A stretch of 64,000 bases of DNA from Streptomyces sp. NL15-2K (lineage in GTDB: Bacteria; Actinomycetota; Actinomycetes; Streptomycetales; Streptomycetaceae). Where the stretch lies: assembly GCF_030551255.1 (NCBI RefSeq), contig NZ_CP130630.1, forward strand, positions 11,345,001-11,409,000, given 5' to 3'. The position numbers and the translations under genes were made by a program. Each line of letters begins with the position of its first letter. Positions within the stretch are counted from its first letter, which is position 1. The notes under the pieces are model-generated. The model did not search any database. It was not told the origin of the DNA and saw only the letters and a list, made by a program, of their open reading frames with translations. This document shows, piece by piece, positions 8,590-62,563 of this stretch.

Positions 8590-9338
8590 CCGCTGTGTCC
8601 CGTACGTCGGGTGCTGCCGACGCGATCGACGTGCTCGTGGTCGACGACGACTTCATGGTGGCCAGGGTCCACCGCGCCTTCGTCGACCGCGTCGAGCCGT
8701 TCCGGGTCGTCGGTGTCGCCCACACCGGCGAGCAGGCGGCCCACGCCGTCGACGCGCTGCGCCCCGACCTCGTCCTGCTCGACCTGTACCTGCCGGACGT
8801 CTTCGGCCTGGACGTCATTCCCCGGCTGCGCACCGCCGGCCACGACTGCGACGTCATGGTCATCAGTGCCGCCCGGGAGGCGGACGCGGTCCGCGGCGCC
8901 GCCCGCCACGGCGTGGTCGACTACCTCCTGAAACCCTTCGACTTCGAGGACCTGCGCGCCCGCCTGGAGCGTTACGCCGTCCAGCGCGGCCGCCTGCTCA
9001 CCGCCGTCGTCCGCAGCCAGGCCGACGTGGACCGGGTGCTGGCCGGAGCGGCCGTACCGGCGTCGGCCGCCGGCACCCTGCCCAAGGGCATGAGCGTGGA
9101 GACCGCCGAGCTGATCGAACGCACGCTGCGCGCCGCGGAGGGCTCCCTGTCCGCCGCCGAGTGCGCGACCCTGGCCGGCGTCTCCCGCGTCAGCGCCCGC
9201 CGCTACCTGGAGCACTTCCACGCGATCGGCAGCGCCGACGTGTCCCTGCGCTACGGAATGGCGGGACGACCCGAGCGCCGCTACCGCTTCCGCGATGAGT
9301 CGACGGGGCTCCGGCCGGGTGGGGAAGCGCGGGCCTAG
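8586..9338 (+). CDS. Response regulator, CitB/DcuR family
   Basis: The 250-residue protein starts within the kinase stop (ATGA). Its receiver domain has DDD near residue 20, phospho-acceptor Asp near residue 66 (LLDLYLPD) and the conserved Lys in YLLKPFDFEDL. The C-terminal third (SAAECATLAGVSRVSARRYLEHF) is the helix-turn-helix of the DpiA/DcuR group. It likely activates tctCBA. The stop codon TAG (9336-9338) is the end of the inverted repeat of the MITE-like element downstream, so the last residues abut an insertion border. Confidence 0.92.
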   Translation: MTAVSRTSGAADAIDVLVVDDDFMVARVHRAFVDRVEPFRVVGVAHTGEQAAHAVDALRPDLVLLDLYLPDVFGLDVIPRLRTAGHDCDVMVISAAREADAVRGAARHGVVDYLLKPFDFEDLRARLERYAVQRGRLLTAVVRSQADVDRVLAGAAVPASAAGTLPKGMSVETAELIERTLRAAEGSLSAAECATLAGVSRVSARRYLEHFHAIGSADVSLRYGMAGRPERRYRFRDESTGLRPGGEARA

Positions 9339-9560
9339 TGCCCCGACAGGCAACGTTCGCCCCGTCGCGACGCCCGGCACGCTCCCCCACTGCCCTAAAG
9401 GCGTGGGAGGTGCCCCCACTCGCCGCACCGGCCGAAAGCCCAAGTACATCCAGTACGAGGACTTCCGGCCGGCACGCCGAGAGCACGCACCGGCTGCGGT
9501 CCTCGGCCGCTGCGCGGCGGGCGCTCCTTGACGGGCAAACGTTGCCTGCCGGGGCACTAG
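9335..9560 (+). repeat. MITE-like element, copy 1 (CTAG-bordered)
   Basis: 226-bp element with imperfect terminal inverted repeats, CTAGTGCCCCGACAGGCAAC at the left and its near-complement at the right (about 26 of 28 positions match). The core holds CACGCTCCCCCACTGCC, a GGGAGGTGCCCCCAC stretch and a hairpin at 9428-9472. It is related to copies at 30098, 40913 and 62345. The left TAG is the stop codon of the response regulator. It fills most of the gap to the convergent NarL-type regulator. No coding potential is visible, so it would need a transposase in trans. Confidence 0.85.
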
Positions 9561-9644
9561 GTGTGCTGCCGAGGCGTGACCGATGAGTGTCAGAGTGGGT
9601 TGAGGCGGGCCTTGAGCAGGCAGAACTCATGAACCGCTCGGACG

Positions 9645-10292
9645 TCACGGCAGCAGCCGTCGCTCCTTGGCCACCGCCACCGCGCCGGCCCGTGTCTCCA
9701 CCCCCAACTTGCCGTAGATCCGCCCCAGGTGGGTCTTGACCGTCGCCTCGCTGATGAACAGGGCCCGGGCGATCTCCCGGTTGCCCAGGCCGCGGGCCAG
9801 CTGCCCGAGGATCTCGCGCTCACGCGCGGACAGGGCGGGAGCCGGGCTGCGCAGCCGGGTCAGCAGCCGGTCGGCCACGGGGGCGGACAGGGCGGTGCGG
9901 CCGGACGCCGCGTTGCGGATCGCCGTGAACAGTTCCTCGGGGCGTTCGGCCTTGAGCAGATAGCCCGTGGCGCCCGCCTCGATGGCGCGGGTGATGTCGG
10001 CGTCGGTGTCGAACATGGTGAGCACCAGCACGCGGGGACCCGCCGCATCGCCGGAGGTCAGGCGCCGCGTGGCCGTCACGCCGTCCATGGCGCCGTCGAG
10101 CTGGAGGTCCATCAGCACCACGTCGGGGCTCAGGCGGTCGGCCAGGGCGAGCGCCTCCTCGCCGCTGCCCGCCTCACCGACGACCTCGATGCCGTCGGCG
10201 CTGGACAGCAGGGCGCGCAGCCCCGCACGGACCACGGCGTGGTCGTCGCACAGCAGCAGCCGGACGGGCGGTGAGGACACCGATCTACTCAT
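9645..10292 (-). CDS. NarL/LuxR-family response regulator
   Basis: This 215-residue protein has a receiver domain with LLLCDDHAVVRAGL at the start, phospho-acceptor Asp near residue 62 (VVLMDLQLDG), and the switch Thr and Lys (TMFDTD, YLLKAE). A LuxR-type helix-turn-helix follows at about 150-205 (LSAREREILGQLARGLGNRE, then ATVKTHLGRIYGKLGV). It is the partner of the kinase encoded immediately upstream; the two genes overlap by four bases. Targets are unknown. The divergent methyltransferase gene is the nearest candidate. Confidence 0.95.
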   Translation of the reverse strand: MSRSVSSPPVRLLLCDDHAVVRAGLRALLSSADGIEVVGEAGSGEEALALADRLSPDVVLMDLQLDGAMDGVTATRRLTSGDAAGPRVLVLTMFDTDADITRAIEAGATGYLLKAERPEELFTAIRNAASGRTALSAPVADRLLTRLRSPAPALSAREREILGQLARGLGNREIARALFISEATVKTHLGRIYGKLGVETRAGAVAVAKERRLLP

Positions 10293-11521
10293 CGGACGGG
10301 CTCCTTGTGTGGGGCGGGGACGAAGGAGGTGAGCGGGACGGCCGCCGATACGACGGTGCCCTCGCCCGGCGTGGACTCCACGGTGAGTGCGCCGCCTGCC
10401 TGCCGGGCCCGGATGCGCATGGCCGGCAGCCCGTGCCCGCGCGCTCGGCCAGGCTCTGACGCGGTCCCCGGGCTCGGGCGGTCCACGTCGAATCCGCGGC
10501 CGTTGTCGGCGACGTCCAGCGAGATCTGGTCGTCCAGGCAGGTCAGGGTTACCGCGGCCCGTGTCGCCGCGGCATGCTCGCGGACATTGGCCAGCGCCCC
10601 CTGGGCGATGCGCAGGAGCGTGGCCTCCACCCGTTCCGGCAGCCGGCCCGGATCGCCGTCGAGCCGGAACTCCACGGTCAGGCCCGGACCGCTCTCCCGT
10701 GCGGCGAGTGCGGCGAGGGCGTCGGGGAGCGACTGCCGGGCGAGGTCGGCCGGCGCCAGGTCGTGGACGAACCGGCGGGCCTCCGTGAGGTTGCGGGAGG
10801 TGATCCCGGCCGCTTCGCGGACGTGGTCACGCGCCGCGTGCGGGTCCGTGTTCCAGACGCGCTCGGCGGCCTGGAGCAGCATCCGCTGGCTGGACAGGCC
10901 CTGCGCGAGGGTGTCGTGGATCTCCGAGGACAGGCGCTGCCGTTCCGCCAGCACCCCCGCCCGCCGTTCGGTGGCCGCGAGGTCGTGGCGGGTGCGGACC
11001 AGGTCCTCGATGAGCACCCGCTGCCGGGCCCCTTGGCGCTGCAGATGGACCAGTACGGCGGTGGCGACCGCGGCGACGGCCGGCGGGGCCACCACCATGT
11101 TGGGGTTGAGCGTGCCGTCGGCCGACCGCACCTGGGAGGCGACCACCAGCGCGGTGAGCACGACCGCGAGCGGCACCGCGAGCCGCGGGCGCAGCGCGTG
11201 CAGACCGGCGAACAGCAGGGGCATAGCGCACCACGTGGCGCTCGGCGTGAGGACGAGGAGCACCACCCAGACGGCGGACACCGAGCCCAGCCAGACCAGA
11301 TGACGCGGGGTGGCCGGCGAGCCGGGGCGGGGGGCCGGGGCCAGAAAGCGCCCGAGGACGTAGAGCAGACAGAAGACCGCGAAGAGCGCCACCACCCACC
11401 CGGTGCGCGCCCCGTCCTGGTCGCGGGTCAGGAAACGGGCGAACGAGGAGCCGAGCAGCAGGAAGAACGCGGCGTCGACGACCGTAGCCAGCCAGCGCTC
11501 GTCCGGATCGGTGTGTTCCAT
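10289..11521 (-). CDS. Two-component sensor histidine kinase, NarL-partner (HisKA_3) type
   Basis: The 410-residue protein has an N-terminal membrane domain of about five to six helices (residues 10-155), which replaces an extracellular sensor. A coiled-coil-like linker leads to the dimerisation domain with SSEIHDTLAQGLSSQ (phospho-acceptor His near residue 200). The C-terminal ATPase has NVREHAAAT and DNGRGFD, and ends GHGLPAMRIRARQAGG. The compact membrane domain without a large outside loop is typical of intramembrane-sensing kinases of actinobacteria. The signal is unknown. It is coupled to the NarL-type regulator by ATGA. Confidence 0.93.
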   Translation of the reverse strand: MEHTDPDERWLATVVDAAFFLLLGSSFARFLTRDQDGARTGWVVALFAVFCLLYVLGRFLAPAPRPGSPATPRHLVWLGSVSAVWVVLLVLTPSATWCAMPLLFAGLHALRPRLAVPLAVVLTALVVASQVRSADGTLNPNMVVAPPAVAAVATAVLVHLQRQGARQRVLIEDLVRTRHDLAATERRAGVLAERQRLSSEIHDTLAQGLSSQRMLLQAAERVWNTDPHAARDHVREAAGITSRNLTEARRFVHDLAPADLARQSLPDALAALAARESGPGLTVEFRLDGDPGRLPERVEATLLRIAQGALANVREHAAATRAAVTLTCLDDQISLDVADNGRGFDVDRPSPGTASEPGRARGHGLPAMRIRARQAGGALTVESTPGEGTVVSAAVPLTSFVPAPHKEPVR

Positions 11522-11650
11522 CCTCCGTGTCTAACGCGCCGGACGCGGCACCGCATCAACCGATCGGCTGACATGAGGTTCACCCGAATGCCCCCGGACC
11601 GCAGCCGGTTGACCGAGCGGATGAGCGGCAGGAGCCCCGAGGCTGGATCC

Positions 11651-12442
11651 ATGACCACCAAGAACCTCACCGCCAACCGCGCCGCCCTCGGCCACCGTGT
11701 CACCTACGCCGTGCGCCACCCCGGGAAAGTGCCCCGCCACCTGGCCCGCGCCGCCCGCGACATGTGGCTGCGCCACCGGCACGCCGACCACATCTCCTAC
11801 TACCGCGCGGTGATGCGCTCCGACACCCGTGCCGACCCGGACGCGGCGGTCGGCAGCCGTAACCGTGAGCGCTGGCTGGCGCTCGGGGCGATGCAGTTCG
11901 ACTACCTCCTCGGGCACGGTCTGCGCCCCGAGCACCGCATGCTGGAGATCGGCTGCGGCAACCTGCGGGGAGGCTGGCGGTTCATCCGGCACCTGGAGCC
12001 GGGGCACTACTACGGCATCGACATCTCGCCCGACATCCTCTTCGCCGCGCAGGACACCGTCGTGGAGATGGGCCTGGAACAGCGGCTCCCCTCGCTGACC
12101 CCGGTGCGCGACCTGACGCTGCGGTTCCTGCCCGCGGCCCGTTTCGACGTGGTGCACGCGCACAGTGTCTTCTCCCACTCGCCGCTGCCCGTCATCGAGG
12201 AGTGCCTGGCCAACGTGAGCCGGGTGCTCGCGCCGGGCGGCTGGTTCGACTTCACCTTCGACCGCACCGAGGGCGAGGAGCACCACGTACTGCGGGAGGA
12301 CTTCTACTACCGCACCGAGACGCTCGTGGCCCTGGCCGAGCGGCACGGCCTGCGGGCCCGCTTCATGGACGACTGGGAGAAACTCCCGCACGGGCAGTCC
12401 AAGATCCGCGTCACGCACGGGAACGACGTCGGCGCGAACTGA
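11651..12442 (+). CDS. Class I SAM-dependent methyltransferase
   Basis: I chose the ATG at 11651 (MTTKNLTANRAALG), preceded by a GAGG; the frame is open upstream without support. The 263-residue protein has the SAM-binding motif I MLEIGCGNLRGGWRFIRHL near residue 98, a following acidic residue (GIDISPDILFAAQ), and the post-motif FDVVHAHSVFSH. This layout fits small-molecule or sugar methyltransferases of the Methyltransf_11 group; the substrate is not apparent. It is divergent from the NarL-type kinase operon. Confidence 0.85.
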   Translation: MTTKNLTANRAALGHRVTYAVRHPGKVPRHLARAARDMWLRHRHADHISYYRAVMRSDTRADPDAAVGSRNRERWLALGAMQFDYLLGHGLRPEHRMLEIGCGNLRGGWRFIRHLEPGHYYGIDISPDILFAAQDTVVEMGLEQRLPSLTPVRDLTLRFLPAARFDVVHAHSVFSHSPLPVIEECLANVSRVLAPGGWFDFTFDRTEGEEHHVLREDFYYRTETLVALAERHGLRARFMDDWEKLPHGQSKIRVTHGNDVGAN

Positions 12443-12506
12443 CCGTCGACGCCGCGCGAGCCGTGGAGGTTCGGAGTAGGCCTTTCCCGTTTCCCTGCTC
12501 AGGGGG

Positions 12507-12561
12507 TTGTCCGTACATTCGGTTGCCACCTAGGGTCGCTCTCTGAGAGCAAGCGCTTTCT
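12507..12561 (+). promoter_or_regulatory. Promoter with LacI-type operator ahead of the sugar operon
   Basis: TTGTCC (12507-12512) and TAGGGT (12531-12536) are spaced 18 bp and would start transcription near 12543. Immediately downstream is the 14-bp near-palindrome AGCAAGCGCTTTCT (12548-12561), which has the AAGCGCTT centre typical of LacI-family operators. A repressor bound here would block transcription. No LacI gene is present in the window. Confidence 0.45.
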
Positions 12562-12590
12562 GCGTGTCCGAGCCGTCCCAGGAGAACCGC

Positions 12591-13706
12591 ATGCCCCCGC
12601 TCCCAGCCCGCCGCCGGGTCGCCGTCGTCGGCACCGGCGCCATCGTCAGCGGCAGCCACCTGCCCGCCCTCAGAGCCCACGCCGACCGGACGGAACTGGT
12701 GGCCGCCGTCGACGTGGACCAGGACCGGCTCGACCAGTTCCGGGAGATCGCGGGCGGCCAGGTCGCCGGGTACACGTCGATGGACGCGATGCTGGACGCC
12801 GCACGCCCCGACCTCGTCCTCATCGGCACGCCCCCGTCCCTGCACCGGGAGCAGACGGTCGCCGCGCTGAAGGCAGGCGCCTGGGTGCTGTGCGAGAAGC
12901 CGCTGACCCTGTCGCTCGCCGAGTACGACGAGATCGCGGCGGCCGAGGAGGCCTCCGGGGCCTACGCGTCCGTGGTCTTCCAGCACCGCTACGGCTCCGG
13001 CGCCGTCCACGCCCGCGAACTGATCGCGAGCGGCGAGCTGGGCGCCCCATTGGTCGCGCACTGCCAGACCACCTGGCACCGGGACGCCGCCTACTACGCC
13101 GTGCCCTGGCGCGGAAAGTGGGCCACCGAGGGCGGCGGGCCGACCATGGGACACGGCATCCACCAGTACGACCTGCTGCTGCACCTGCTCGGCCCGTGGA
13201 CGGAGGTGCGGGCGATGGCCGCGCGGCTGGTCCACGACACCGAGAGCGAAGACGTCTCCACGGCCCTAGTACGGTTCGAGAACGGCGCCCTGGCCACCGT
13301 CGTCAACAGCGTGCTCTCTCCGGACGAGGTGAGCCGCATCCGCATCGACTGCGCCGACGCCACGGTCGAGCTCACCCACCTGTACGGGCACCGCAACGAC
13401 GACTGGGTCTACACCCCGGCCCCGCACGTCGCCTCCGAGCGCGCCGCCGCCTGGCGCACCCCCGCCTCGGACCTGCCCAGCTCGCACACGGCGCAGCTCG
13501 GCGCGCTCCTCGACGCGTACGACAACGGTGTCCGGCCACCGAACAGCGGCCCCGAGGCCCGTGCCACCCTCGAGTTCGCCGCCGCCCTCTACAAAGCGGC
13601 GTTCACCGGCGACCCGGTGCACGCGGGCGACATCGGACCCGGCGATCCCTTCTACCCGTCCATGCACGGCGAGCACCCCGACTGGGCCCCCAAGGAGAGC
13701 GCATGA
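12591..13706 (+). CDS. Gfo/Idh/MocA-family NAD(P)-dependent oxidoreductase
   Basis: The ATG at 12591 has AGGAG seven bases upstream and is preferred over the in-frame GTG at 12564. The 371-residue protein opens with a Rossmann fold (VAVVGTGAIVSGSHLPAL) and carries the family's EKPLTLSLAEYDEI motif with the catalytic-site lysine near residue 103. The C-terminal domain has WRGKWATEGGGPTMGHGIHQ, typical of this family. It would oxidise or epimerise a sugar or sugar derivative. It is first of three tightly coupled genes (ATGA, then GTGA overlaps) with the PmoA-like and cupin genes. Confidence 0.9.
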   Translation: MPPLPARRRVAVVGTGAIVSGSHLPALRAHADRTELVAAVDVDQDRLDQFREIAGGQVAGYTSMDAMLDAARPDLVLIGTPPSLHREQTVAALKAGAWVLCEKPLTLSLAEYDEIAAAEEASGAYASVVFQHRYGSGAVHARELIASGELGAPLVAHCQTTWHRDAAYYAVPWRGKWATEGGGPTMGHGIHQYDLLLHLLGPWTEVRAMAARLVHDTESEDVSTALVRFENGALATVVNSVLSPDEVSRIRIDCADATVELTHLYGHRNDDWVYTPAPHVASERAAAWRTPASDLPSSHTAQLGALLDAYDNGVRPPNSGPEARATLEFAAALYKAAFTGDPVHAGDIGPGDPFYPSMHGEHPDWAPKESA

Positions 13707-14626
13707 GCACCATCCGCGTCCGTCACACGCACGGCGAGGACATCGCCGTGGCGACCGCGGACGGCACCGAGATCCTCCGCTACGTCTACCGTCCCGACCC
13801 CGACCCCTTCGAGGCCCGCAAGCCCTACGCCCACCCGGTGCGCACCCTCGCCGGGCGCACGGTGACCGGCTACCGCCCGAACGACCACCGCTGGCACAAG
13901 GGCCTGCAGATGACGGCGAGTCATCTGTCCGGCCAGAACTTCTGGGGCGGCAACTGCTACGTCCACGGCCAGGGCTACCTGCGCCTGCCGGAGCGTGTCG
14001 GCTCGATGCGGCACGACGGCTTCCCCGTGTTCGACGTCGAGGACGACCGGCTCGCCTTCGCCGAGAACCTCACCTGGGTCGAGAACGGCGGCCAGGAGTG
14101 GGCCCGCGAGGAGCGCGGCATCGTCGTCCACTCGGTCGACGAGGAGGCCGGCGCCTGGGCCCTGGACTGGTCGATCCGCCTCACCAACGTCCGCGACACA
14201 CCACTGGCCTTCGGCTCCCCGACCACCGCGGGCCGCGAGATGGCCGGCTATACCGGACTCCAGTGGCGCGGGCCGCGCGACTTCACCGGTGGCACCGTCT
14301 TCGCCCCGGACACCGACGCCGAGAAGCTGATGGGCTCCCAGGGGCCCTGGCTGGCGTTCACCACCGAGCACGACGAGTTCGACGGGCACTCCACGCTCGT
14401 CTTCGCGCACGCGCCGGAGAACCTCGACGAGCGGACGGCCGTCCACGAGTCCCACTGGTTCGTGCGTTCCGAGCCGTTCCCGACGGTCGCGTTCTCCTGG
14501 GCGTTCTTCGAGGAGTTCGAGCTGCCGCCGGGCGAGTCCTTCGCCTACCGCTACCGGGTCGTCGTCGCCGACGGCGCCTGGGACCGCGACCGCGTGGGCA
14601 CGTACCTGGAGGGCCTGCCGTGGTGA
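13703..14626 (+). CDS. PmoA-like protein (DUF6807 type)
   Basis: The 307-residue protein starts in the stop of the oxidoreductase. It is rich in Trp, His and Asp with a galactose-mutarotase-like look: NDHRWHKGLQ near residue 57, SGQNFWGG, then long beta-strand segments (EFELPPGESFAYRYRVVV at the end). It resembles proteins annotated PmoA, which recur beside Gfo/Idh/MocA enzymes in sugar-use loci; their biochemical role is unproven. No signal peptide is visible, so it is probably cytoplasmic. An epimerase or mutarotase role for the imported sugar is inference. Confidence 0.75.
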   Translation: MSTIRVRHTHGEDIAVATADGTEILRYVYRPDPDPFEARKPYAHPVRTLAGRTVTGYRPNDHRWHKGLQMTASHLSGQNFWGGNCYVHGQGYLRLPERVGSMRHDGFPVFDVEDDRLAFAENLTWVENGGQEWAREERGIVVHSVDEEAGAWALDWSIRLTNVRDTPLAFGSPTTAGREMAGYTGLQWRGPRDFTGGTVFAPDTDAEKLMGSQGPWLAFTTEHDEFDGHSTLVFAHAPENLDERTAVHESHWFVRSEPFPTVAFSWAFFEEFELPPGESFAYRYRVVVADGAWDRDRVGTYLEGLPW

Positions 14627-15390
14627 GCGACCCCGCAGCCGTGAAGCCCACGCTCCCGCACCCGCTGCCCGGTGCCGTCGGCCTGTCCCACCTCAGCGCC
14701 TACGACTGGGAGGCCGCCGACGGTGTGTGCGGCGGCAGCCCGCATCTGCATCTGGTGTGCACGGAGGCGTACGTCGTCACCGGCGGACAGGGCGCGGTGC
14801 AGACGCTGAGCCCCGACGGCTACCGGGACATCCCGCTGGAGGCGGGCTCGGTCGCCTGGTTCACGCCGGGGACCGTGCACCGCATGGTCCAGGGCGGCGA
14901 CCTGCGCATCACCGTGCTGATGCAGAACAGCGGCCTGCCCGAGGCCGGGGACGCCGTCTTCACCTTCCCGCCCGAGGTGCTCGCCGACCCCGAGAAGTAC
15001 GCGGCCGCGGCGACGCTGCCGCCCGGCACGGGAGAGGAGACGGCGACGGCCGCCCGGCGCCGCAGGGACCTCGCCGTCGAGGGCTACCTCGTCCTGCGCG
15101 AGGCCCTCGTCGCCGGGGACAACGGCCCGTACGCCGAGTTCCAGCGCGCCGCAGCCCGGCTCGTGCGCGCCAAGGTGCCGGCCTGGCGCGAGCTGTGGCG
15201 GGCCGGTGCGCTCGCCACCGCCGAACGCACCGGCGCCCAGCTCGACGCGCTGGCGGACGGTGAACCGGCCTATCTCGCCGAGGCGACCGCCCACGAAACC
15301 GCGCCCACAAGGCTCGGCGGCTTCGGGATGTGCGGCCGAAGGGACGAGTACAACCTGCCGGGGACGACGTTGCCGCACGGGGGCGAGTAG
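14623..15390 (+). CDS. Cupin-domain protein
   Basis: GTG at 14623 overlaps the previous stop (GTGA). The 255-residue product has a cupin motif in its N-terminal half: SPHLHLVCTEAYVVTGGQG, then EAGSVAWFTPGTVHRM, with the metal-ligand pattern HxH...E...H. The C-terminal half is helical and not recognised. Its place after an oxidoreductase and PmoA-like gene suggests a sugar isomerase or sugar-binding role, but no substrate can be named. Confidence 0.8.
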   Translation: MSDPAAVKPTLPHPLPGAVGLSHLSAYDWEAADGVCGGSPHLHLVCTEAYVVTGGQGAVQTLSPDGYRDIPLEAGSVAWFTPGTVHRMVQGGDLRITVLMQNSGLPEAGDAVFTFPPEVLADPEKYAAAATLPPGTGEETATAARRRRDLAVEGYLVLREALVAGDNGPYAEFQRAAARLVRAKVPAWRELWRAGALATAERTGAQLDALADGEPAYLAEATAHETAPTRLGGFGMCGRRDEYNLPGTTLPHGGE

Positions 15391-15509
15391 CGGCGCGCCG
15401 AACCGGGGGGGGCTGAGCAAGGCGCGTTGAGGAGACCGCCAGGGGAGATCAAGGGGAGTGCAGGGGGGCGTCAACAGAAGGTCCGAGGAGAGAAAGAGGT
15501 GACCTCGGC

Positions 15510-18603: not shown

Positions 18604-18608
18604 ACGGG

Positions 18609-29459: not shown

Positions 29460-30101
29460 ATGGACGCCGAGCTGTTCCCCAGGCCCCCTACGGAGGTCGC
29501 GCCGGGCGCGGTGCACGTACCGGACTGGCTGGACGCGGACCGGCAGCGCGAGCTGGTGGAGGCCTGCCGCGTGTGGTCCCGCCCGCCGGCCGGGCTGCGG
29601 ACGGTCCGCACACCCGGCGGCGGCACGATGACCGCCCGCCAGGTATGTCTGGGCCGGCACTGGTATCCGTACGCCTACACCCGCACGGTCGTCGACGGCG
29701 ACGGTGCCCCCGTGAAGCCGTTCCCTCAGTGGCTGGGGGAGCTGGGCCGACGTGCGGTGAGGGACGCGCTGGGGGCGGAAGCCGCTCCGTACGACATCGC
29801 CCTGATCAACTTCTACGACGGCGACGCCCGCATGGGCATGCACCGCGACAGCGACGAGAAGTCGGACGCGCCGGTGGTGTCCCTGAGCCTCGGCGACACC
29901 TGCGTCTTCCGCTTCGGCAACACCGAGACCCGGACCCGCCCCTACACGGACGTCGAACTGCGCAGCGGCGACCTGTTCGTGTTCGGCGGCCCGTCCCGCC
30001 TCGCCTACCACGGCGTGCCCCGGGTCCACGCGGGCACCGCACCGCCGGAGTTGGGGCTGGCCGGGCGGCTGAACATCACGCTCAGGGTCAGCGGCCTCTA
30101 G
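29460..30101 (+). CDS. AlkB-family 2-oxoglutarate/Fe(II) dioxygenase
   Basis: I prefer the ATG at 29460; CAGGAT seven bases before it looks like a -10 box of a leaderless transcript. An in-frame ATG at 29451 exists. The 213-residue protein has the AlkB iron motif HRD (GMHRDSDEKSD, His near residue 127), the distal His (PRVHAGTAP) and the 2-oxoglutarate arginine in RLNITLRVS. LINFYDGDARMGMH is the usual text around the first ligands. It would repair alkylated bases by oxidative demethylation. Its TAG stop is the border of a MITE-like element. Confidence 0.92.
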   Translation: MDAELFPRPPTEVAPGAVHVPDWLDADRQRELVEACRVWSRPPAGLRTVRTPGGGTMTARQVCLGRHWYPYAYTRTVVDGDGAPVKPFPQWLGELGRRAVRDALGAEAAPYDIALINFYDGDARMGMHRDSDEKSDAPVVSLSLGDTCVFRFGNTETRTRPYTDVELRSGDLFVFGGPSRLAYHGVPRVHAGTAPPELGLAGRLNITLRVSGL

Positions 30102-30360
30102 GCCCTTTCGCCACATTCCCGCCTGCCCCGCGGCGCCATGCACGCTCCCCCACTGCCTTAAAGGCGTGGGAGGTGCCCCCACTCGCCGCACCGGGCACAG
30201 GCCCACGTACAACCAGTACGAGGGCCTGCGCCCGGCACTCCCACAGCCTTCGGCCGGGGGGACCCCCAGAGCACGCACCTACAGCGACACAAGCCGCTAC
30301 CGCGGCGGGCGCGGGGCCCGCCCTTGGGGCGGACGACGGGAATGTGACGAAAGGGCCTAG
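30098..30360 (+). repeat. MITE-like element, copy 2 (different terminal repeats, same core)
   Basis: 263-bp element with terminal inverted repeats CTAGGCCCTTTCGCCACATT (left) and a near-perfect complement at the right, 23 of 24 positions. These ends differ from the other three copies, but the core (CACGCTCCCCCACTGCCTTA and the following GGGAGGTGCCCCCAC) is shared. A core hairpin lies at 30191-30235. The left TAG (30099-30101) is the stop codon of the AlkB-like gene. Confidence 0.85.
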
Positions 30361-39787: not shown

Positions 39788-40912
39788 GTGAGTACGCCCC
39801 AAAGAACCCGGACCGGCGAAACCCTCGACGTCGACCACACTGACGCCGTCTACCGCGGCTGGCTGAAAGAAGCCGTCCGCAAGGTCCAGGCCGACGCCAA
39901 CCGCTCGGCCGACACGCATCTGCTCCGCTTCCCGCTGCCGGAGAAATGGGGCATCGACCTGTATCTGAAGGACGAGTCGACCCATCCCACCGGCAGCCTC
40001 AAGCACCGCCTCGCCCGCTCGCTGTTCCTCTACGGCCTGTGCAATGGCTGGATCCGGCCCGGCCGCCCGGTGATCGAAGCGTCCAGCGGCTCGACGGCCG
40101 TGTCCGAGGCGTACTTCGCCAAGCTGATCGGCGTCCCCTTCATCGCCGTCATGCCGCGCACGACGAGCGCCGAGAAGATCCGCCTGATCGAGTTCCATGG
40201 CGGGCAGTGCCACTACGTCGACGACCCCCGCACGATGTACGAGGAGTCGTCCCGCCTCGCGGCGGACACCGGCGGCCACTACATGGACCAGTTCACCTAC
40301 GCCGAACGGGCCACGGACTGGCGCGGCAACAACAACATCGCCGAGTCGATCTTCCGCCAACTGCGTCTGGAGCGCTTCCCGGAGCCCGCGTGGATCGTCG
40401 CCACGGCCGGCACCGGCGGCACCTCCGCGACCCTCGCGCGCTACGTCCACTACACGCAGCACGACACCCGGGTCTGTGTCGCCGATCCGGAGAACTCGTG
40501 TTTCTTCGAGGGCTGGACCACCGGCGATCCGGACGTCACCTGCGACTGGGGCTCGCGCATAGAGGGCATCGGCCGCCCCCGCATGGAGCCGAGCTTCGTG
40601 CCCGGCGCGATCGACCGGATGATGAAGGTCCCGGACGCGGCCAGCGTCGCCGCCGTACGGGCCCTGGAGCAGGCCATCGGCCGCAGGGCGGGCGGGTCCA
40701 CGGGCACCGGGCTGTGGAGCGCGCTGAAGATCGTCGCCGAGATGGTGGCCGAAGGGCGGCAGGGGAGTGTGGTGACGCTGCTGTGCGACCCGGGCGACCG
40801 TTACCTGGACAAGTACTACTCGGACACCTGGCTCGCCGAACAGGGCCTGGACATCACGCCGTACACGGCGGCGATCGCCTCCCTGCTGGAGACGGGCGTC
40901 TGGCCGGACTGA
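39788..40912 (+). CDS. PLP-dependent cysteine synthase/CBS-like enzyme
   Basis: GTG at 39788 has AAGGAG eight bases upstream; a longer open frame is not supported. The 374-residue protein has fold-type II PLP motifs: the Schiff-base lysine in [13 protein letters not shown] (near residue 71), the substrate loop [17 protein letters not shown], and the phosphate-binding [14 protein letters not shown] near residue 201. Length exceeds cysteine synthase (about 310), with an N-terminal extension and C-terminal segment ending [12 protein letters not shown]. It likely acts in sulfur or serine/cysteine metabolism; specificity is open. Operator-like palindrome upstream. Confidence 0.88.
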
Positions 40913-41106
40913 CTGGTGCTCGGCAGACAACGTCCGCCCCGTCGCGACGCCCGGCACGCCCGCTCGCCGCACCGGCCCGGAAGCCCAAGTACGTCCAGGC
41001 CCTTCGGGCAGACGCCGCCTTCCGCCCGGCACTCCCCCGGAGGGGCCCCAGAGCACGCACTGGACGCCGCTCCTTGGCGGGCGAACGTCGCCCGCGGGGG
41101 CACTAC
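40913..41106 (+). repeat. MITE-like element, copy 3 (shortened and diverged)
   Basis: 194-bp relative of copies 1 and 4: left end CTGGTGCTCGGCAGACAACG, right end GCGGGGGCACTAC, shared GTCGCGACGCCCGGCACG and CTCGCCGCACCGG. The CTCCCCCACTGCCCTAAAGG segment has been lost and the central hairpin altered. It starts at the base after the PLP-enzyme stop. Its right-end TAG on the minus strand (41103-41105) is the stop codon of the convergent SRPBCC gene. Confidence 0.75.
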
Positions 41107-52508: not shown

Positions 52509-52565
52509 GCGCGCAGTCTGCCCCACCGGGCCCGTCTCCAAGGGCGCATCGTCTATCGTGACCGG

Positions 52566-54050: not shown

Positions 54051-54063
54051 GGTCGCACCGAGA

Positions 54064-55131: not shown

Positions 55132-55362
55132 CCCCGTGGAACCCACCCCGCCCCCCGAACCGGTCGCCCCCGACCTGTGACGGTCCCGGCCGTCGCGGGC
55201 GTTACCGGCCCGTACGACAAAGACTCCGGCACACCGTAACGGCTGATGGCCGGTTTGTGGACGAGTTGGACCGAGTTGCGCAGGAACGTTGTTGCAGACC
55301 GTCGAAGCAAGCGCCGACCCGGCCCGGGCGGACCGCGCTGTCGGCGCCAAGGTCAACCGCCG

Positions 55363-55375
55363 TACACTCCCACAG
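55363..55375 (+). promoter_or_regulatory. Leaderless promoter of lnt
   Basis: TACACT (55363-55368) ends six bases before the GTG start, so transcription would begin at or next to the start codon. No ribosome site is visible. Confidence 0.5.
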
Positions 55376-56985: not shown

Positions 56986-57054
56986 CCGTACGCCCGTCGC
57001 ACGCCCTCTGAAGTGCGCCGGAGCGACGGATCCCGCCCGTTAGGGTCGGGGCCC

Positions 57055-57534
57055 ATGGCTACTCCTGATTTCATCCGTACCATCCGGGCATCCGTGGGAC
57101 ACGAGTTGCTGTGGCTGCCGGGAGTCAGCGCCGTCGTCCTCGACGACGAGGGCAGAGTGCTGCTCAACCGCCGCACCGACACCCGCAAGTGGTCGCTGAT
57201 CGGCGGCATTCCGGAGCCGGGGGAGCAGCCGGCGGCCTGCGCCGTGCGGGAGGTGCAGGAGGAGACGGGCGTGCACTGCGTGGTGGAGCGGGTCCTCATC
57301 GTGCAGGCACTGAACCCCGTGACGTACGACAACGGCGATGTCTGCCAGTACATGGACATCTCGTTCCGCTGCCGGGCCGTCGGCGGCGAGGCCCGGGTCA
57401 ACGACGACGAGTCGCTGGACGTGGGCTGGTTCGCCGTGGACGCTCTGCCGGAGCTGAACGAGTTCGGGGTCTTCCGGATCAAGCAGGCCCTGTCGGACAC
57501 ACCCACATGGTTCGAGCCCATGAGTTCCCAGTGA
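57055..57534 (+). CDS. Nudix hydrolase
   Basis: The 159-residue protein starts [20 protein letters not shown], and carries a full Nudix box, [20 protein letters not shown] followed by ETGV (near residues 50-73). TAGGGT eight bases before the ATG suggests a leaderless start. It hydrolyses a nucleoside diphosphate-linked compound; the substrate is unknown. The frame is open upstream without a start that fits. Confidence 0.92.
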
Positions 57535-57588
57535 AGTATGGGTGGTGACCACATGGAGTGGGAGGCGGGCGCTGTCTAAGGTCGGGGC

Positions 57589-58389
57589 ATGACCGCTCGC
57601 AGTGCCCTCCCTGCTCCCTCCGCCATGACGCTCGACCTCGAGGGCCGTACCGCCCTCGTCACCGGCGCCGCCGGCGGCATCGGCCGCGCCTGCGCGCTGC
57701 GGCTCGCGGCCGCCGGGGCCAAGGTGAGAGCGATCGACCGGGACGCCGCCGGTCTGGAGGCGCTGGCCGAGCAGGCACGGGACCTGGCGGGCAGCCTCGA
57801 GCCGCACGTCCTCGACCTCACCGACCTGGACGCCGCCGAACTCGCCGCCGCGGGAACCGACGTCCTGGTCAACAACGCCGGGCTGCAGCTGGTGCGCCCC
57901 CTCGAGGAGTTCCCGCCCGACGTCTTCCACACCGTGCTCACCGTGATGCTGGAGGCGCCCTTCCGGCTCATCCGCGGCGCCCTGCCCCACATGTACGGGC
58001 AGGGATGGGGCCGCATCGTGAACGTGTCCTCCGTCCACGGGCTGCGGGCCTCGGCGTACAAGTCGGCCTATGTGGCGGCCAAACACGGACTGGAAGGGCT
58101 GTCCAAGACGGCCGCGCTCGAAGGCGCGCCCCACGGTGTCACCTCCAACTGTGTGAACCCCGCCTATGTGCGCACCCCCCTGGTCGAGCAGCAGCTCGCC
58201 GACCAGGCACGGACGCACGGCATCCCCGAGGAGCGCGTGCTGACCGACGTGCTGCTCCAGGACAGCGCCGTCAAGCGGCTGATCGAACCGGAGGAGGTCG
58301 CCGAGGCCATGGCGTACCTGTGCAGCCCGCAGGCATCCTTCGTGACCGGGACCTCGCTCGTCCTCGACGGCGGCTGGACCGCGCATTGA
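57589..58389 (+). CDS. 3-hydroxybutyrate dehydrogenase (SDR family)
   Basis: The 266-residue protein has classical SDR motifs: TGAAGGIGRACALRL near residue 25, VNNAG near 94, NVSSVHGL with catalytic Ser near 148, YVAAKHGLEGLSK with Tyr near 161 and Lys near 165, and the NPAYVRTPLVEQQL segment typical of 3-hydroxybutyrate dehydrogenase. It would oxidise (R)-3-hydroxybutyrate to acetoacetate. TAAGGT six bases before the ATG suggests a leaderless start. The next gene is a PucR-type regulator. Confidence 0.9.
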   Translation: MTARSALPAPSAMTLDLEGRTALVTGAAGGIGRACALRLAAAGAKVRAIDRDAAGLEALAEQARDLAGSLEPHVLDLTDLDAAELAAAGTDVLVNNAGLQLVRPLEEFPPDVFHTVLTVMLEAPFRLIRGALPHMYGQGWGRIVNVSSVHGLRASAYKSAYVAAKHGLEGLSKTAALEGAPHGVTSNCVNPAYVRTPLVEQQLADQARTHGIPEERVLTDVLLQDSAVKRLIEPEEVAEAMAYLCSPQASFVTGTSLVLDGGWTAH

Positions 58390-58447
58390 GCGGGGCCGCG
58401 CCGGTGTGCCGCGGAGTTTTCCACAGGGCTGACGGCGCGGCCGGGCC

Positions 58448-60451
58448 ATGGGCAATCCTGTGAGCATGTCCCACGATCACGTGCAGTCCGCCGAGCGTTC
58501 CGCAGCTGGAGCTGGAGCTGGAGCTGGAGCTGGAGCTGGAGCTGGAGCTGGAGCGCCGGCGGTCGGCGGTGCCGAGGCGCCGTTCCTGGAGTTGCTGGCC
58601 CGAGGTGCGTCCGCCGACGCCTATGAGCAGCCGGTGCTGCTGGCCCGCGCCGAAGGGCGGTCGGCCGAGTGGATCGCCGCGCTCGAACGGGCCAAGCCGC
58701 TCGCCCTGCGCGTGCGCTCGGAGCTGGAGGGCCGGCGCCGGCGGGAGGCCGAGCTTTCCGCGCTCTTCGAGACCGCCCACGACCTGGCCGGTCTGCGCGA
58801 CCTGGACGCGGTCCTGCGGGCGATCGTGCAGCGCGCCCGGTCGCTGCTCGGCACGGACGTGGCCTACCTCAGCCTGAACGACCCGGGCAGGGGCGACACC
58901 TACATGCGGGTCACCGAGGGCTCGGTCGCGGCCCGCTTCCAGCAGCTGCGGATCGGGATGGGGGAGGGGCTGGGCGGCCTCGTCGCCCAGACGGCCCGCC
59001 CGTACGTCACCGACGACTATTTCAAGGACGACCGTTTCCAGCACACGGTCACGATCGACGCGGGCGTCCGGGACGAGGGACTGGTCGCCATCCTCGGCGT
59101 CCCGTTGATGCTGGGGCACCATGTCATCGGCGTCCTGTTCGCCGCGGACCGGCGCGCCCGCGTCTTCGACCGGGAGCAGATCGCGCTGCTGGGCTCCTTC
59201 GCCGCGCTGGCCGCGGCCGCGATCGACACCGCGAACCTGCTCACCGAGACCCGCTCGGCCCTCGCCGGCCTGGAGCGGGCCAACGAGATCATCCGGGACC
59301 GCAGCGGGGTCATCGAGCGTGCCTCGGACGTCCACGACCGGCTCGCCGAACTCGTCCTGCGCGGCGGCGGTGTCCACGACGTGGCCGCCGCGGTCTCCGA
59401 AGTCCTCGACGGCACGGTCGAGTTCACCGAGGCCCTCGCCGCACCGGCCCGGGCCCTGGAGGCCTCCCACGCCGAAGGGCACGCCGTGCGACACGAGAAC
59501 GACTGGATCGCCGCCGTCTCCGCCGGCGGCGAGCTCCTCGGCGCGCTCGTGCTGCGCGGTCATCCGGGCCTCGACCCCGTCGACCAGCGCACTCTGGAGC
59601 GCGCCGCCATGGTCACCTCACTGCTGCTGCTCGCCAGACGCTCGGCCGCCGAGGCCGAACAGCGCGTGCGCGGCGAGCTCCTCGACGACCTGCTCGACGC
59701 CCGGGACCGTGACCCACGCCTGCTGCGAGAGCGCGCCGCCCGGCTGCGCGCCGACCTCGACGCCGCCCATGTCGTGCTCGCCGCCCGCCTGGACGCTCCA
59801 GCGGCCGACGCCGACCAGGAGGCGGACGCCCGGCGGCGCCTGTGGTCCGCCGCGTCGCACCTCGCCGCCACCCGGCACGGACTGGCCGCCGCACGCGACG
59901 GCGGCACCGTCCTGCTGCTGCCCCTGGAGCCCGGCGACAGTACGACGGAGCTGGCCCGGCGCACCGCCCGGCACCTCGGCACCGCCGTGCACGAAGCGGT
60001 CACCGTCGGCGCCTCCGCCCCTGTCGAGGACCTCGCCGCCCACCCGGACGCCGTGGCGGCCGCCTACGCGGAGGGCAGACGCTGCCTCGACGCCCTGCGC
60101 CTGCTCGGCCGCACCGGCGACGGGGCCGCCGCCGAGGACTTCGGCTTCCTCGGCCTGCTGCTCGCCGGGGACCGGGACATCGACGGGTTCGTGGATCGCA
60201 CGATCGGCCCGGTCGTCGCCTACGACGACCGGCGCGGCACCGACCTGGTGCGCACTCTCGACGCCTACTTCGACTGCGGAATGAGCCCCGCCCGCACCAA
60301 GGACGAGCTGCACGTCCACGTGAACACGGTCGCCCAGCGCCTGGAGCGGGTGGGCCGTCTCCTCGGCGACGACTGGCAGAGCCCTGCCCGCGCCCTGGAG
60401 ATCCAACTCGCCCTGCGGCTGCACCGGTTGTCGGTGCGGGGACGGGACTGA
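58448..60451 (+). CDS. PucR-type regulator with GAF domain
   Basis: The 667-residue protein starts at 58448 or at the in-frame ATG 58466. After a low-complexity Ala-Gly stretch (near residues 20-36) comes a helical region, then a GAF domain (residues about 120-265: TDVAYLSLNDPGRGDTYMRV, FFADRR-type end at FAADRRARVFDREQ) and a long coiled region. The C-terminus is the PucR helix-turn-helix TKDELHVHVNTVAQRLERVG near residue 615-640. It sits 58 bp after the dehydrogenase gene, which it probably regulates together with the transporter. Confidence 0.88.
   Translation: MGNPVSMSHDHVQSAERSAAGAGAGAGAGAGAGAGAPAVGGAEAPFLELLARGASADAYEQPVLLARAEGRSAEWIAALERAKPLALRVRSELEGRRRREAELSALFETAHDLAGLRDLDAVLRAIVQRARSLLGTDVAYLSLNDPGRGDTYMRVTEGSVAARFQQLRIGMGEGLGGLVAQTARPYVTDDYFKDDRFQHTVTIDAGVRDEGLVAILGVPLMLGHHVIGVLFAADRRARVFDREQIALLGSFAALAAAAIDTANLLTETRSALAGLERANEIIRDRSGVIERASDVHDRLAELVLRGGGVHDVAAAVSEVLDGTVEFTEALAAPARALEASHAEGHAVRHENDWIAAVSAGGELLGALVLRGHPGLDPVDQRTLERAAMVTSLLLLARRSAAEAEQRVRGELLDDLLDARDRDPRLLRERAARLRADLDAAHVVLAARLDAPAADADQEADARRRLWSAASHLAATRHGLAAARDGGTVLLLPLEPGDSTTELARRTARHLGTAVHEAVTVGASAPVEDLAAHPDAVAAAYAEGRRCLDALRLLGRTGDGAAAEDFGFLGLLLAGDRDIDGFVDRTIGPVVAYDDRRGTDLVRTLDAYFDCGMSPARTKDELHVHVNTVAQRLERVGRLLGDDWQSPARALEIQLALRLHRLSVRGRD
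58504..58551 (+). repeat. Hexanucleotide tandem repeat (AGCTGG x8) within the PucR gene
   Basis: Eight perfect copies of AGCTGG encode alternating Ala-Gly near residue 20. The unit is a multiple of three, so gain or loss changes only the linker length, not the frame. Confidence 0.95.
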
Positions 60452-60477
60452 CCCCGTACACACGGGCGTACGGGGTC
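60450..60477. terminator. Bidirectional terminator hairpin
   Basis: Perfect 10-bp stem GACCCCGTAC/GTACGGGGTC with an 8-nt loop, overlapping the PucR stop and lying before the convergent MFS gene. The flanks extend pairing imperfectly. Confidence 0.8.
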
Positions 60478-60492
60478 CGTCTCCGAGGGGGA

Positions 60493-61881
60493 TCAGACGG
60501 TGTGTGCGTCCACCGCACGGGCCGTGGCGGGCGCCGCGTCGGTGGAGGAGGGCTCGATCTCGGTCAGATCCCGGTGACGGGTCTCCTTGGCCGCTGCCAC
60601 GGCGATGACGGTCAGGAGGGCCGCGGCGACGACGTACAGGGCGATCGGGGTCGAGCTGTCGTATTCGGCCAGCAGCGCGGTGGCGATGAGCGGCGCCGGT
60701 GCGCCCGCCGCGACCGAGGCGAACTGGGCGCCGATGGAGGCGCCGGAGTAGCGCATCCGGGTCGCGAACATCTCGGAGAAGAAGGCGGCCTGGGGCGCGT
60801 ACATCGCGCCGTGCAGGACCAGACCGACGGTCACGGCGAGGATCAGGGGGCCGAAACCGCCGGTGTCGATGAGCGAGAAGAACGGGAACATCCACAGACC
60901 GACCCCGACCGCGCCCAGCAGGTACACGGGACGGCGGCCGATCCGGTCCGACAGCGCGCCCCAGGCGGGGATGACCGCGAAGTGCACCGCCGAGGCGATC
61001 AGCACCGCGTTGAGCGCGGTCTGCTTGGAGACGCCGGCCGAGGTGGTGGCGTAGACGAGGATGAACGCGGTGATGACGTAGTAGCTGATGTTCTCCGCCA
61101 TGCGGGCGCCCATGGCCACCAGGACGTCGCGCCAGTGGTGCTTCAGCACGGAGACGAGCGGCAGTTTCTCGACGTAGGCGTCCGGGGCGGCCTTGCGCGC
61201 CTCAGCCTGCGCCAACGCCTGTTTGAAGACAGGCGATTCATCGACAGACAGACGAATCCACAAACCGACGATCACCAGCACACCGGAGAGCAGGAAGGGG
61301 ATCCGCCAGCCCCAGCTGCCGAACGCGCTGTCCGAGAGCACGGCGGTCAGCAGGGACAGTACGCCGGTCGCGAGGAGTTGCCCGGCGGGCGCCCCGGTCT
61401 GCGGCCACGAGGCCCAGAACCCGCGCCGCCGCGCGTCCCCGTGCTCGGACACCAGCAGCACGGCCCCGCCCCACTCGCCACCGAGCGCGAAACCCTGCAC
61501 CAGGCGGAGCACGGTCAGCAGCACGGGAGCGGCGGTTCCGACGGTCGCGTGCGTGGGCAGCAGTCCGATCGCGAAGGTCGCGCCGCCCATCAGCAGCAGG
61601 CTCAGCACCAGCAACTTCTTGCGCCCCAGCCGGTCGCCGTAGTGCCCGAAGACGAGGGCGCCCAGTGGACGGGCCGCGAATCCGACGGCGTAGGTCAGGA
61701 ACGACAGCAGCGTGCCGACGAGCGGGTCGGAGTCCGGGAAGAACAGCTTGTTGAAGACGAGAGCGGCGGCGGAACCGTACAGGAAGAAGTCGTACCACTC
61801 GATGGTGGTGCCGATGAGGCTGGCGGCGACGATGCGTTTGAGGTTGGCGGGGGGTGGGGGAGCGGTTGCGGGGGACGACAT
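60493..61881 (-). CDS. MFS transporter, metabolite:H+ symporter (MHS) type
   Basis: The ATG at 61881 with GGAAGTGG upstream gives 462 residues; ATG at 61926 is in frame. The MHS hallmarks are the opening IGTTIEWYDFFLYGSAAALV, the loop GHYGDRLGRKKLLVLSLLLM and the internal ALGGEWGGAVLLVSEH. MHS members carry citrate, alpha-ketoglutarate, proline or shikimate. Next to a hydroxybutyrate dehydrogenase and PucR regulator, hydroxybutyrate or a related organic acid is a plausible substrate (inference). Confidence 0.9.
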   Translation of the reverse strand: MSSPATAPPPPANLKRIVAASLIGTTIEWYDFFLYGSAAALVFNKLFFPDSDPLVGTLLSFLTYAVGFAARPLGALVFGHYGDRLGRKKLLVLSLLLMGGATFAIGLLPTHATVGTAAPVLLTVLRLVQGFALGGEWGGAVLLVSEHGDARRRGFWASWPQTGAPAGQLLATGVLSLLTAVLSDSAFGSWGWRIPFLLSGVLVIVGLWIRLSVDESPVFKQALAQAEARKAAPDAYVEKLPLVSVLKHHWRDVLVAMGARMAENISYYVITAFILVYATTSAGVSKQTALNAVLIASAVHFAVIPAWGALSDRIGRRPVYLLGAVGVGLWMFPFFSLIDTGGFGPLILAVTVGLVLHGAMYAPQAAFFSEMFATRMRYSGASIGAQFASVAAGAPAPLIATALLAEYDSSTPIALYVVAAALLTVIAVAAAKETRHRDLTEIEPSSTDAAPATARAVDAHTV

Positions 61882-61944
61882 CGGCACCACTTCCAGGCGG
61901 TTGGCGGGGACGTTTCGTGTCGCCATACCGTAGGAATCCGCAGG

Positions 61945-62331
61945 TCAGTGGCACATGTGGTGGGACACCATAGTTCTGGGTGCGGAGGTGCATGCGGCCA
62001 CCATGAGGGCGTGGACGGAGCGGCTACGAAAGCCACCTTTGGTGGTTGGGTGCTGGCTACGCTGGAGGTCTCGCTGCGGGCAGTGGGCCGGACGCGGTAG
62101 CTGTGGGTGGCACAACTCGCGGGCGACCGCGACGATCGGCGGTACCTCCACACCCGCGCACGCCAGCACGATCCGCGCGCGCAGGGCCAGCGCCTGGGCC
62201 GACGATGCCCGCCGCGTCCACCGCTCCAACACCGCCCGCTCGTCATCAGACAGCAGCAACGGTTCCAGCTTCGGGCCCCGACGAGGAACTGACGCACCAG
62301 CAACAGAAGTCACACAACTACCAAGGATCAA
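61945..62331 (-). pseudogene. IS630-family transposase fragment (N-terminal)
   Basis: The minus-strand frame from 62331 reads SDDERAVLERWTRRASSAQA and LALRARIVLACAG, then VAVARELC, the N-terminal helix-turn-helix region of IS630-type transposases. Homology stops near 62105 and the catalytic DDE part is missing. The rest of the open frame looks unrelated. A 15-bp gap separates it from MITE-like copy 4. Confidence 0.8.
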
Positions 62332-62344
62332 CCATTGGCAGGAA

Positions 62345-62563
62345 CTAGTGCCGCGACAGGCAACGTTTGCCCTTCAAGGAGCGGCGTCCGGTGCGTGCTC
62401 TGGGGGTCCCCCCTCTGGGGGAGTGCCGGCCGGAAGCCCTCGTACTGGACGTACTTGGGCTTCCGGCCGGTGCGGCGAGTGGGGGCACCTCCCACGCCTT
62501 TAGGGCAGTGGGGGAGCGTGCCGGGCGTCGCGACGGGGCGAACGTTGCCTGTCGCGGCACTAG
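62345..62563 (-). repeat. MITE-like element, copy 4 (inverted orientation)
   Basis: 219-bp element with the best terminal repeats of the family: CTAGTGCCGCGACAGGCAAC at each end, inverted (27 of 28 positions match). Its core is in reverse orientation to copies 1-3 and has the hairpin at 62426-62470. It is inserted in the IS5-type transposase remnant, within the TKIHL codons, and CTAG is present at both ends. Confidence 0.88.

Follow-up and report, generated by a model that had tools for sequence, protein, structure and literature searches.

Four related elements in a 64,000-nucleotide stretch of the Streptomyces sp. NL15-2K genome (positions 11,345,001 to 11,409,000 of the 12.35-Mb contig, in a genome of 12.4 Mb; this whole stretch is referred to as the window) are miniature inverted-repeat transposable elements (MITEs) with a 4-bp CTAG target duplication. 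The joint explanation that best accounts for their features, to which we give a probability of about 0.8, is that these MITEs insert at CTAG and are moved by IS5-type transposases, that copies upstream of genes are lost, that a core hairpin is selected on one of the two strands, and that the ends around it have been exchanged. An initial annotation had described four related elements, borders of CTAG/CTAG in elements 1, 2, and 4 and of CTGG/CTAC in element 3, and a border TAG that serves as the stop codon of three genes (encoding a response regulator, an AlkB-like protein, and an SRPBCC protein). All of this was recovered, the genes by gene calls and Pfam domains (Table 1). The coincidence between borders and stop codons is real and is largely explained by the targeting of CTAG, the rarity of this word, the rebuilding of TAG upon insertion, and the avoidance of gene starts.

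Insertion at CTAG and its relation to stop codons

The elements are small MITEs without genes (coding capacity being assessed without a systematic search) that are present in many copies with terminal inverted repeats (TIRs). Elements 1, 3, and 4 belong to family A, with the terminal repeat TGCC[C/G]CG[A/G]CAGGCAACGTT, while that of element 2 (GCCCTTTCG..CACATTCCCG) is close to family B (GCCCTGTCGTCAAATTCCCG), with an interior as in the other three. The host genome gave 116 matches to element 1, a count in which one copy may recur through partial or inverted matches, and 151 family A ends at ≤3 mismatches, with none for the reversed control pattern. Family A right ends at the same tolerance numbered 71 (three matches for the reversed control) and B-type ends 34 (none for the control). 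At least 83 paired copies, 70 of family A and 13 of family B, with lengths of 61 to 274 bp, were recognized in the loci fetched from this genome. In core-bearing elements, both ends agree on average at 18 to 20 of 20 bases, and the length is often 165 to 181 bp, or larger through modules such as a 33-bp hairpin. Some derivatives of 61 to 96 bp (L126, L137, L217, L252, L284, L295, and L191) consist of barely more than the two ends; their deletion points differ by eye, so that no mobile coreless A family was recognized. The exact family A pattern had no match in the 40 other genomes scanned, and among the public loci listed with the family A end, 79 of 80 were in Streptomyces and one was in an Actinomycetes metagenome-assembled genome.

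CTAG is rare in this genome, as the initial annotation had assumed, with 157 occurrences in the 800 kb sampled versus 2165 expected from base composition, i.e., a depletion of ca. 14-fold. It was found at both ends of 74 of the 83 paired copies, which have unrelated flanks, and the remaining nine had at least one differing border. The flanks beyond CTAG resemble by eye those of control CTAGs in composition, and no further consensus was apparent. Tandem copies with one common CTAG were found at 823,551 and 3,656,922, and 15 of the 83 copies adjoin the end of another recognized mobile element at a common CTAG.

Empty sites were sought in 246 Streptomyces genomes with joined flanks as the query (3356 of the 4692 bases prepared, with two candidates scored per genome). 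The search gave 30 loci, with 30 alignments spanning the junction, at four sites; since it favors uninterrupted sites by construction, it demonstrates the existence of empty sites and not their frequency. At site 1,904,408, nine of the 12 relatives have CTAG (one of them across an alignment gap) and three have CTAA. At site 9,928,292, an exact CTAG is present in 2 of the 14 relatives, the rest having GTAG, TGA, or a shifted CTAG. The comparison with relatives is mixed, a CTAG stop being seen in some of them at two of the four sites and CTAG being absent at the other two, and it is the CTAG borders together with the single CTAG of relatives at those two sites that reveal a target duplication of the MITE kind. 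The border TAG survives insertion because the 4-bp duplication rebuilds it. In relatives with CTAG at the site (their frames being untranslated), the stop codon appears to be older than the insertion and to have been preserved by the duplicated CTAG. Stops made by the element itself are unlikely, as the duplicated CTAG means that an in-frame border TAG predates the insertion, which was seen at these two sites.

For the census of insertion sites, genes were called with a purpose-written codon-usage script instead of being taken from the annotation, with a score cut of 20 for the pooled set. The census omits elements that lack a CTAG border, have poor TIRs, or lie too near a locus end (an incompletely counted set), and its control CTAGs, all outside elements, exclude those adjoining recognized element ends (27 dropped in the control of the host genome). 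The other-species set is made up of 56 elements among the 80 matches listed for the family A end. Pooling it with families A and B of the host genome, 62 of 139 copies are at stop codons versus 53 of 219 control CTAGs (24%), which is above the random CTAG expectation (odds ratio [OR], 2.5; P = 7e-5). The other copies are at convergent (14), tandem (29), or divergent (15) intergenic sites, in coding sequence (17), or at the locus edge (2), the controls numbering 10, 63, 50, 28, and 15, respectively. CTAGs at stops and at convergent sites were used at similar rates (P = 0.82, with the small numbers of 14 convergent copies and 10 controls). Both classes together exceed the divergent and tandem ones (OR, 3.1; P = 4e-6), CTAGs upstream of genes being the least used, and the class pattern was similar at score cuts of 12, 20, and 30. 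Because convergent CTAGs are used at a similar rate and those upstream of genes least, a preference for stop codons is not supported, and the idea that stop codons are recognized as such was rejected; what is favored is any CTAG that does not lie near the start of a gene, and stop codons have no special status among these. Of the target choice at C-TAG stop codons proposed by the initial annotation, the targeting of CTAG and the excess of stops over random CTAGs stand, but the stop-specific preference does not. The simplest explanation of the coincidence is CTAG targeting plus the loss of copies near promoters.

In the host genome, 31 of the 83 paired copies are at stops, a lower share than the three of four in the window. 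Of the empty sites of family A, 33 are intergenic, 23 are at stops, and 14 are in coding sequence, and of those of family B, 5 are intergenic and 8 at stops; the control CTAGs were at first 87 intergenic, 36 stop, and 18 coding and, with element borders removed, 79, 30, and 18. Taken alone, host family A shows no significant departure from random CTAGs (23/70 versus 30/127 at stops, P = 0.18, after removal of element borders), as would be expected if the coincidence were due to chance or to an artifact of gene calling. This is nevertheless a most improbable reading, since the other species, among the matches listed, have 31 of 56 copies at stops versus 23 of 92 control CTAGs (P = 4e-4), and the result was the same at the three score cut-offs. 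Moreover, of the 31 stop copies of the host genome, only 3 have a coding-like frame that continues past the stop at the border (0 of 31 in other species, among the matches listed, and 3 of 38 control CTAG stops).

Another possibility is that the transposition machinery recognizes gene ends, through terminator hairpins, transcription, or supercoiling, with CTAG as only part of the target. The copies per control CTAG (1.17 at stops and 1.40 at convergent sites versus 0.46 at tandem and 0.30 at divergent ones) are in line with it, as are the terminator-like repeats seen by eye after several target stops. In addition, coding insertions in the host genome are not depleted (14/70 versus 18/127 controls), so that pure selection is not the sole possible cause. 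We regard this alternative as unlikely, given that stop CTAGs are not preferred over convergent ones and that a flank consensus beyond CTAG is not apparent. The same coding insertions bear on the earlier suggestion that the element inserts without harm: TAG is indeed rebuilt, but 14 of the 70 family A copies of the host genome are located within a predicted gene or at its start (13 in the pooled census).

A core hairpin maintained on one strand

A core of 67 nt was aligned from 25 copies hand-picked for variety. In its plus-strand stem, 10 of 25 pairs have changed on both sides, amounting to 38 cells versus 13.2 in shuffles of that set, a value reached in none of 500, and the covariation falls clearly when the partners are slid. 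Except for element 2, which was added by hand, the core sets were gathered through the tip motif GTAC..CCAGTAC, and the invariance of the tip in them thus partly reflects how they were chosen. With a covariance model, the core was recovered from 22 of 61 genomes and 3 of 14 genera, and the tip motif was present in 24 of the 30 loci picked with it. One of those without the motif (L378) has, by our own reading, a paired change in the tip. A diverged group (L377, L379, L380, L272, and L318) has another stem, GCATCACCC..GGGTGATGC or similar, and keeps both the tip GTAC..CCAGTAC and the one-strand stability. No Rfam family matched the window at gathering score, nor the interval 9300-9600 at E values up to 5.

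On folding, the reverse strand pairs far better. Among the 157 core-bearing elements (cores being counted as distinct within each TIR group), the plus strand has A·C in 308 cells, equivalent to G·U on the minus strand, versus 16 in the reverse sense, and the minus-strand RNA fold was lower in 98 of the 98 elements folded (covering up to 60 distinct elements of the largest TIR group). From plus to minus, standard pairs rise from 83.0% to 93.6% in the 25 aligned rows, with 7 and 79 G·U cells, respectively; ten hand-written minus-strand rows have 94.8%. The 30 loci picked by the covariance model, which was built on the plus strand, all have the lower fold on the minus strand, with 63 A·C versus 13 G·T cells over 24 distinct cores. 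The terminal repeats have the same strand direction (95 versus 13). The consensus of 48 distinct 169-bp family A elements forms a near-uninterrupted hairpin of -155 kcal/mol on the minus strand and reaches -115 on the plus strand, and element 4 folds at -173.8 versus -141.4 on its other strand. Nearly all mismatches are thus A·C on one strand and G·U on its complement, so that an RNA read from one of the two strands would fold into a hairpin that is near-perfect over its full length. Both sequence marks of a structured RNA are present, namely, pairs that covary and a retention of G·U that is specific to one strand.

Instead of selection of an RNA, the one-strand pattern might reflect a mutation bias, such as deamination (C to T) where one strand is exposed. 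Consistent with this, G-to-A is the commonest change on the plus strand of the 48 distinct 169-bp copies, with 20 kinds at paired sites versus 12 of C-to-T. From intact pairs, however, T-to-C exceeds A-to-G (8 versus 1, derived from totals), the same asymmetry in a change that is not deamination, and deamination alone is therefore no explanation; in these copies, 28 kinds of polymorphism from intact pairs keep G·U on the minus strand and 13 on the plus strand. Compensatory changes are also frequent in the core, and 21 copies with nine TIR types have 6 to 14 G·U pairs in the minus-strand fold and 0 to 3 in the plus-strand one, so that we consider mutation bias rather unlikely.

The initial annotation had suggested that insertion at stops would place the hairpin in the 3' untranslated region (UTR), and copies might be retained there because it acts as a terminator or mRNA stabilizer. 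The folds are very stable (z of -13.6 for element 4), and MITE hairpins that act on neighboring mRNAs are described for other bacteria (PMC2229807 and PMC3733652). Yet, the stable strand is more often antisense to the neighboring gene, 47 versus 28 sense (P = 0.037; in the stop class alone, 33 versus 22, P = 0.18), and uninterrupted sites exist in relatives. With a sense orientation in only 28 of 75 cases, these counts give no support to a benefit of the hairpin as a retained part of the 3' UTR, and we consider this use very unlikely.

A stronger version of the preferred explanation, which we advance tentatively and hold to be somewhat less probable than its negation, is that the MITEs described here would be mobile elements of an RNA-hairpin kind. 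Selection would then act on the one-strand hairpin of ca. 160 nt, which G·U pairs keep near-perfect as RNA while the DNA palindrome stays imperfect. The outer 20 to 30 bp would be replaced between transposase families, and an RNA or single DNA strand might be active in mobilization or persistence.

Terminal repeats and candidate transposases

The same core is found between at least 14 terminal-repeat sequences by our own count, some of which differ by two or three bases. Linkage of the TIRs at 14 of 20 bases, which merges several types, left only four groups that are fully separate, with memberships of 119, 32, 5, and 1. The average identity from one group consensus to another is 32% in the TIR and 88% in the core. 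The plasmids NZ_CP139046.1 and NZ_CP108294.1 carry the core with clearly other ends, and NZ_CP108366.1 carries it with ends that are not clear; the tip motif was not found in the Embleya plasmid NZ_CP108785.1. The terminal repeats differ by group and seem to have been exchanged. Another MITE family, P (GGCCTGTCCGGCGGATC..; seven copies; noted at L094, L133, L163, L418, and L237), is devoid of the core, which is therefore not required by every CTAG MITE; its minus-strand fold is lower in six of the seven copies as found, the orientation being without an independent marker.

The host genome contains six copies of a 1104-bp, CTAG-bounded, IS5-type insertion sequence (IS) with the domains PF13340 and PF01609 and a match to the NCBIfam IS5 model NF033580. 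At L153:12242-13345 (ca. 7,512,242; copies L187-L192), it has two overlapping open reading frames, likely a frameshift pair. At the lower gene-call score cut of 15, used for both IS types, one of the six copies is at a stop, the TAG of an upstream 230-codon gene. IS701-type elements (NF033540) of 1425 to 1450 bp are also CTAG-bounded (L417-L428), with 3 of 12 bounded copies at stops, and several of them are stacked against MITE ends at a common CTAG. The TIR of a 1468-bp IS of the same genome agrees with MITE type C2/C3 at 14 of 20 bases, and that of the 1104-bp IS agrees with MITE TIRs at no more than 13 of 20 (type R). A PF13340 search of 61 Streptomyces genomes gave 29 new loci, and in 10 a repeat bounded by CTAG was present at ≥14/20. 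Among these IS5-type elements of other Streptomyces, L466 matches the TIR of type P, the core-free MITE, at 19 of 20 bases, L470 that of type S at 16, and L458 that of type M at 15. Since the TIRs of some MITEs resemble the ends of CTAG-bounded IS5-family elements, the MITEs are probably mobilized in trans by transposases of the IS5 type; the resemblance supports this for types P, S, and M, and we infer it for the rest.

Other searches were negative. PF13359 gave no CTAG-bounded copy among seven loci of the host genome, and no A, B, C, C2, or E2 TIR pairs 700 to 2500 bp apart were present among the loci collected by that stage. PF13546 proteins of the host genome were rejected as helpers, their elements being CTAG-bounded but with another TIR, as were seven proteins beside four unpaired B ends, which are not transposases. 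An IS-like sequence was seen by eye beside an unpaired end in L240.

In the mechanism that we propose, the MITEs insert at the palindromic word CTAG, which is duplicated in the process, as shown by the borders, the unrelated flanks, and the empty sites, with IS5-type transposases presumably acting in trans (the searches gave no helper for the main type). As CTAG is ca. 14-fold depleted and roughly a quarter of those remaining are C-TAG stops, insertions often fall at a stop, where the duplicated CTAG restores TAG and leaves the protein unaltered. Copies upstream of genes are lost or never established, probably by selection, and the survivors gather, as the counts show, at the 3' ends of genes, at stops and convergent-intergenic sites alike. 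The core pairs are retained as G-C, A-U, or G-U mainly on one strand. Selection probably acts on the element in folded form, be it an RNA or a single strand of DNA, and a change of ends may have changed the transposase partner.

Several observations weigh against this explanation. The excess at stops is not significant in family A of the host genome, and the coding insertions there, which are not depleted, fit poorly with strong purifying selection. The copy at 12,031,315 (L124, with borders CTAG/CTGG) probably interrupts a longer reading frame, which its border TAG cuts, so that not every border stop is original. Empty sites 2,186,861 (three relatives) and 740,735 (one relative) are without CTAG. 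As for the transposases, the IS-MITE TIR matches of 14 to 16 of 20 bases stand without a null comparison, and the loci examined yielded no autonomous partner for either of the families A and B. Finally, the stable strand is not preferentially sense to the neighboring gene, and the RNA role of the hairpin is one that we infer from sequence.

Window elements, known systems, and significance

The features of the window are listed in Table 1. The insertion site of element 2 is the TAG stop of the AlkB-like gene, and the PLP-enzyme gene, said by the initial annotation to end at the border of element 3, does adjoin it but stops at its own TGA outside. The more stable RNA fold is that of the minus strand in the core of element 1 and that of the window plus strand in element 4. 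The hairpin module of ca. 33 bp (CTCCCCCACTGCC..GGCGTGGGAGGTGCCCCCA) is present at 9381-9420, 30141-30181, and 62480-62520 and absent from other copies, e.g., element 3. The region 62569-62910, beside element 4, holds a weak match to an IS5-type transposase.

Table 1. Features of the window (coordinates counted from its first nucleotide)
Feature	Position	Strand	Remarks
Response-regulator gene, PF00072	8586..9338	+	TAG stop within element 1 border
Element 1, family A MITE, 226 bp	9335..9560	+	CTAG at both borders; TIR TGCCCCGACAGGCAACGTT
Element 1 left CTAG target copy	9335..9338	+	Includes TAG 9336-9338, where the upstream gene stops
Element 1 conserved core hairpin	9418..9484	+	Match to covariance model R1
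AlkB-like 2-oxoglutarate (2OG)-Fe(II) oxygenase gene, PF13532	29451..30101	+	TAG stop within border CTAG
Element 2, MITE with same core and other TIR, GCCCTTTCG[CT]CACATTCCCG	30098..30360	+	CTAG at both borders
Element 2 conserved core hairpin	30181..30246	+	More stable RNA fold on minus strand
PALP-type pyridoxal phosphate (PLP) enzyme gene, PF00291	39788..40912	+	Own TGA at 40910-40912; adjoins element 3 border
Element 3, diverged family A copy	40913..41106	+	Borders CTGG/CTAC; convergent genes on either side
SRPBCC/polyketide-cyclase-like gene, PF10604	41103..41555	-	Stop TAG at 41105-41103, in mutated right border
Element 4, family A MITE, 219 bp	62345..62563	-	CTAG at both borders; outside any called gene
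Element 4 conserved core hairpin	62414..62480	-	Within element 4
PF13340 IS5-type transposase domain, weak match near element 4	62812..62910	-	24.5 bits; cut-off, 34.3

Repetitive extragenic palindromic (REP) sequences and bacterial interspersed mosaic elements (BIMEs), which are associated with RAYT, are not known to have a target duplication. A REP is a palindrome of 20 to 40 bp with a GTAG or CGTC tag, and GTAG-tagged termini are reported often to supply the TAG stop of flanking open reading frames (PMC3733652). Repeat termini that supply TAG stops are therefore already known, from the GTAG REPs, which are like our elements in this, in their palindromic nature, and in their many copies. In contrast, the elements described here are longer and have true TIRs and a CTAG duplication, which sets them apart from REPs and BIMEs. 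Like IS5-family MITEs and IS, they have a 4-bp target duplication of YTAR type, here CTAG (IS5 is reported to duplicate YTAR at its target; PMC10359306), and CTAG-bounded IS5-type transposases, whose TIRs some of the MITEs resemble, are found in the same and related genomes. Unlike them, they have a constant core hairpin across the at least 14 TIR sequences in four groups, and no autonomous partner was found here for the main TIR type. The IS701-family elements of the host genome also insert at CTAG and duplicate it, sometimes at stops and sometimes at a CTAG in common with a MITE, but with the TIR TAGTGCTTCG/TAGGACTCCG, with which no core-bearing MITE was seen. The NEMIS/Correia, ERIC, YPAL, and RUP MITEs have TA termini, in contrast to CTAG here, and are not known to combine exchangeable TIRs with G·U pairs retained on one strand. 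They are likewise short, hairpin-forming MITEs near genes, with long stem-loops (PMC2229807).

The usual picture of MITEs is the opposite of a conserved interior with differing ends. In the literature searched, mostly outside subscription journals, we recognized no report of this Streptomyces family, of its differing ends, or of the strand signature. The results provide a simple quantitative rule for how transposon ends come to double as stops in a high-GC genome, in that the target word is rare and persists chiefly at stop codons and between genes. Most deserving of further study is the hairpin, which is conserved on one strand while the ends around it are exchangeable. This widespread Streptomyces element, with its interior conserved, its ends varying by group, and a strand signature of RNA type, offers a testable case of a non-coding transposon selected as a folded nucleic acid. 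If this is true, an RNA or single DNA strand would be active in mobilization or persistence, and the interior would not be mere debris between terminal repeats.

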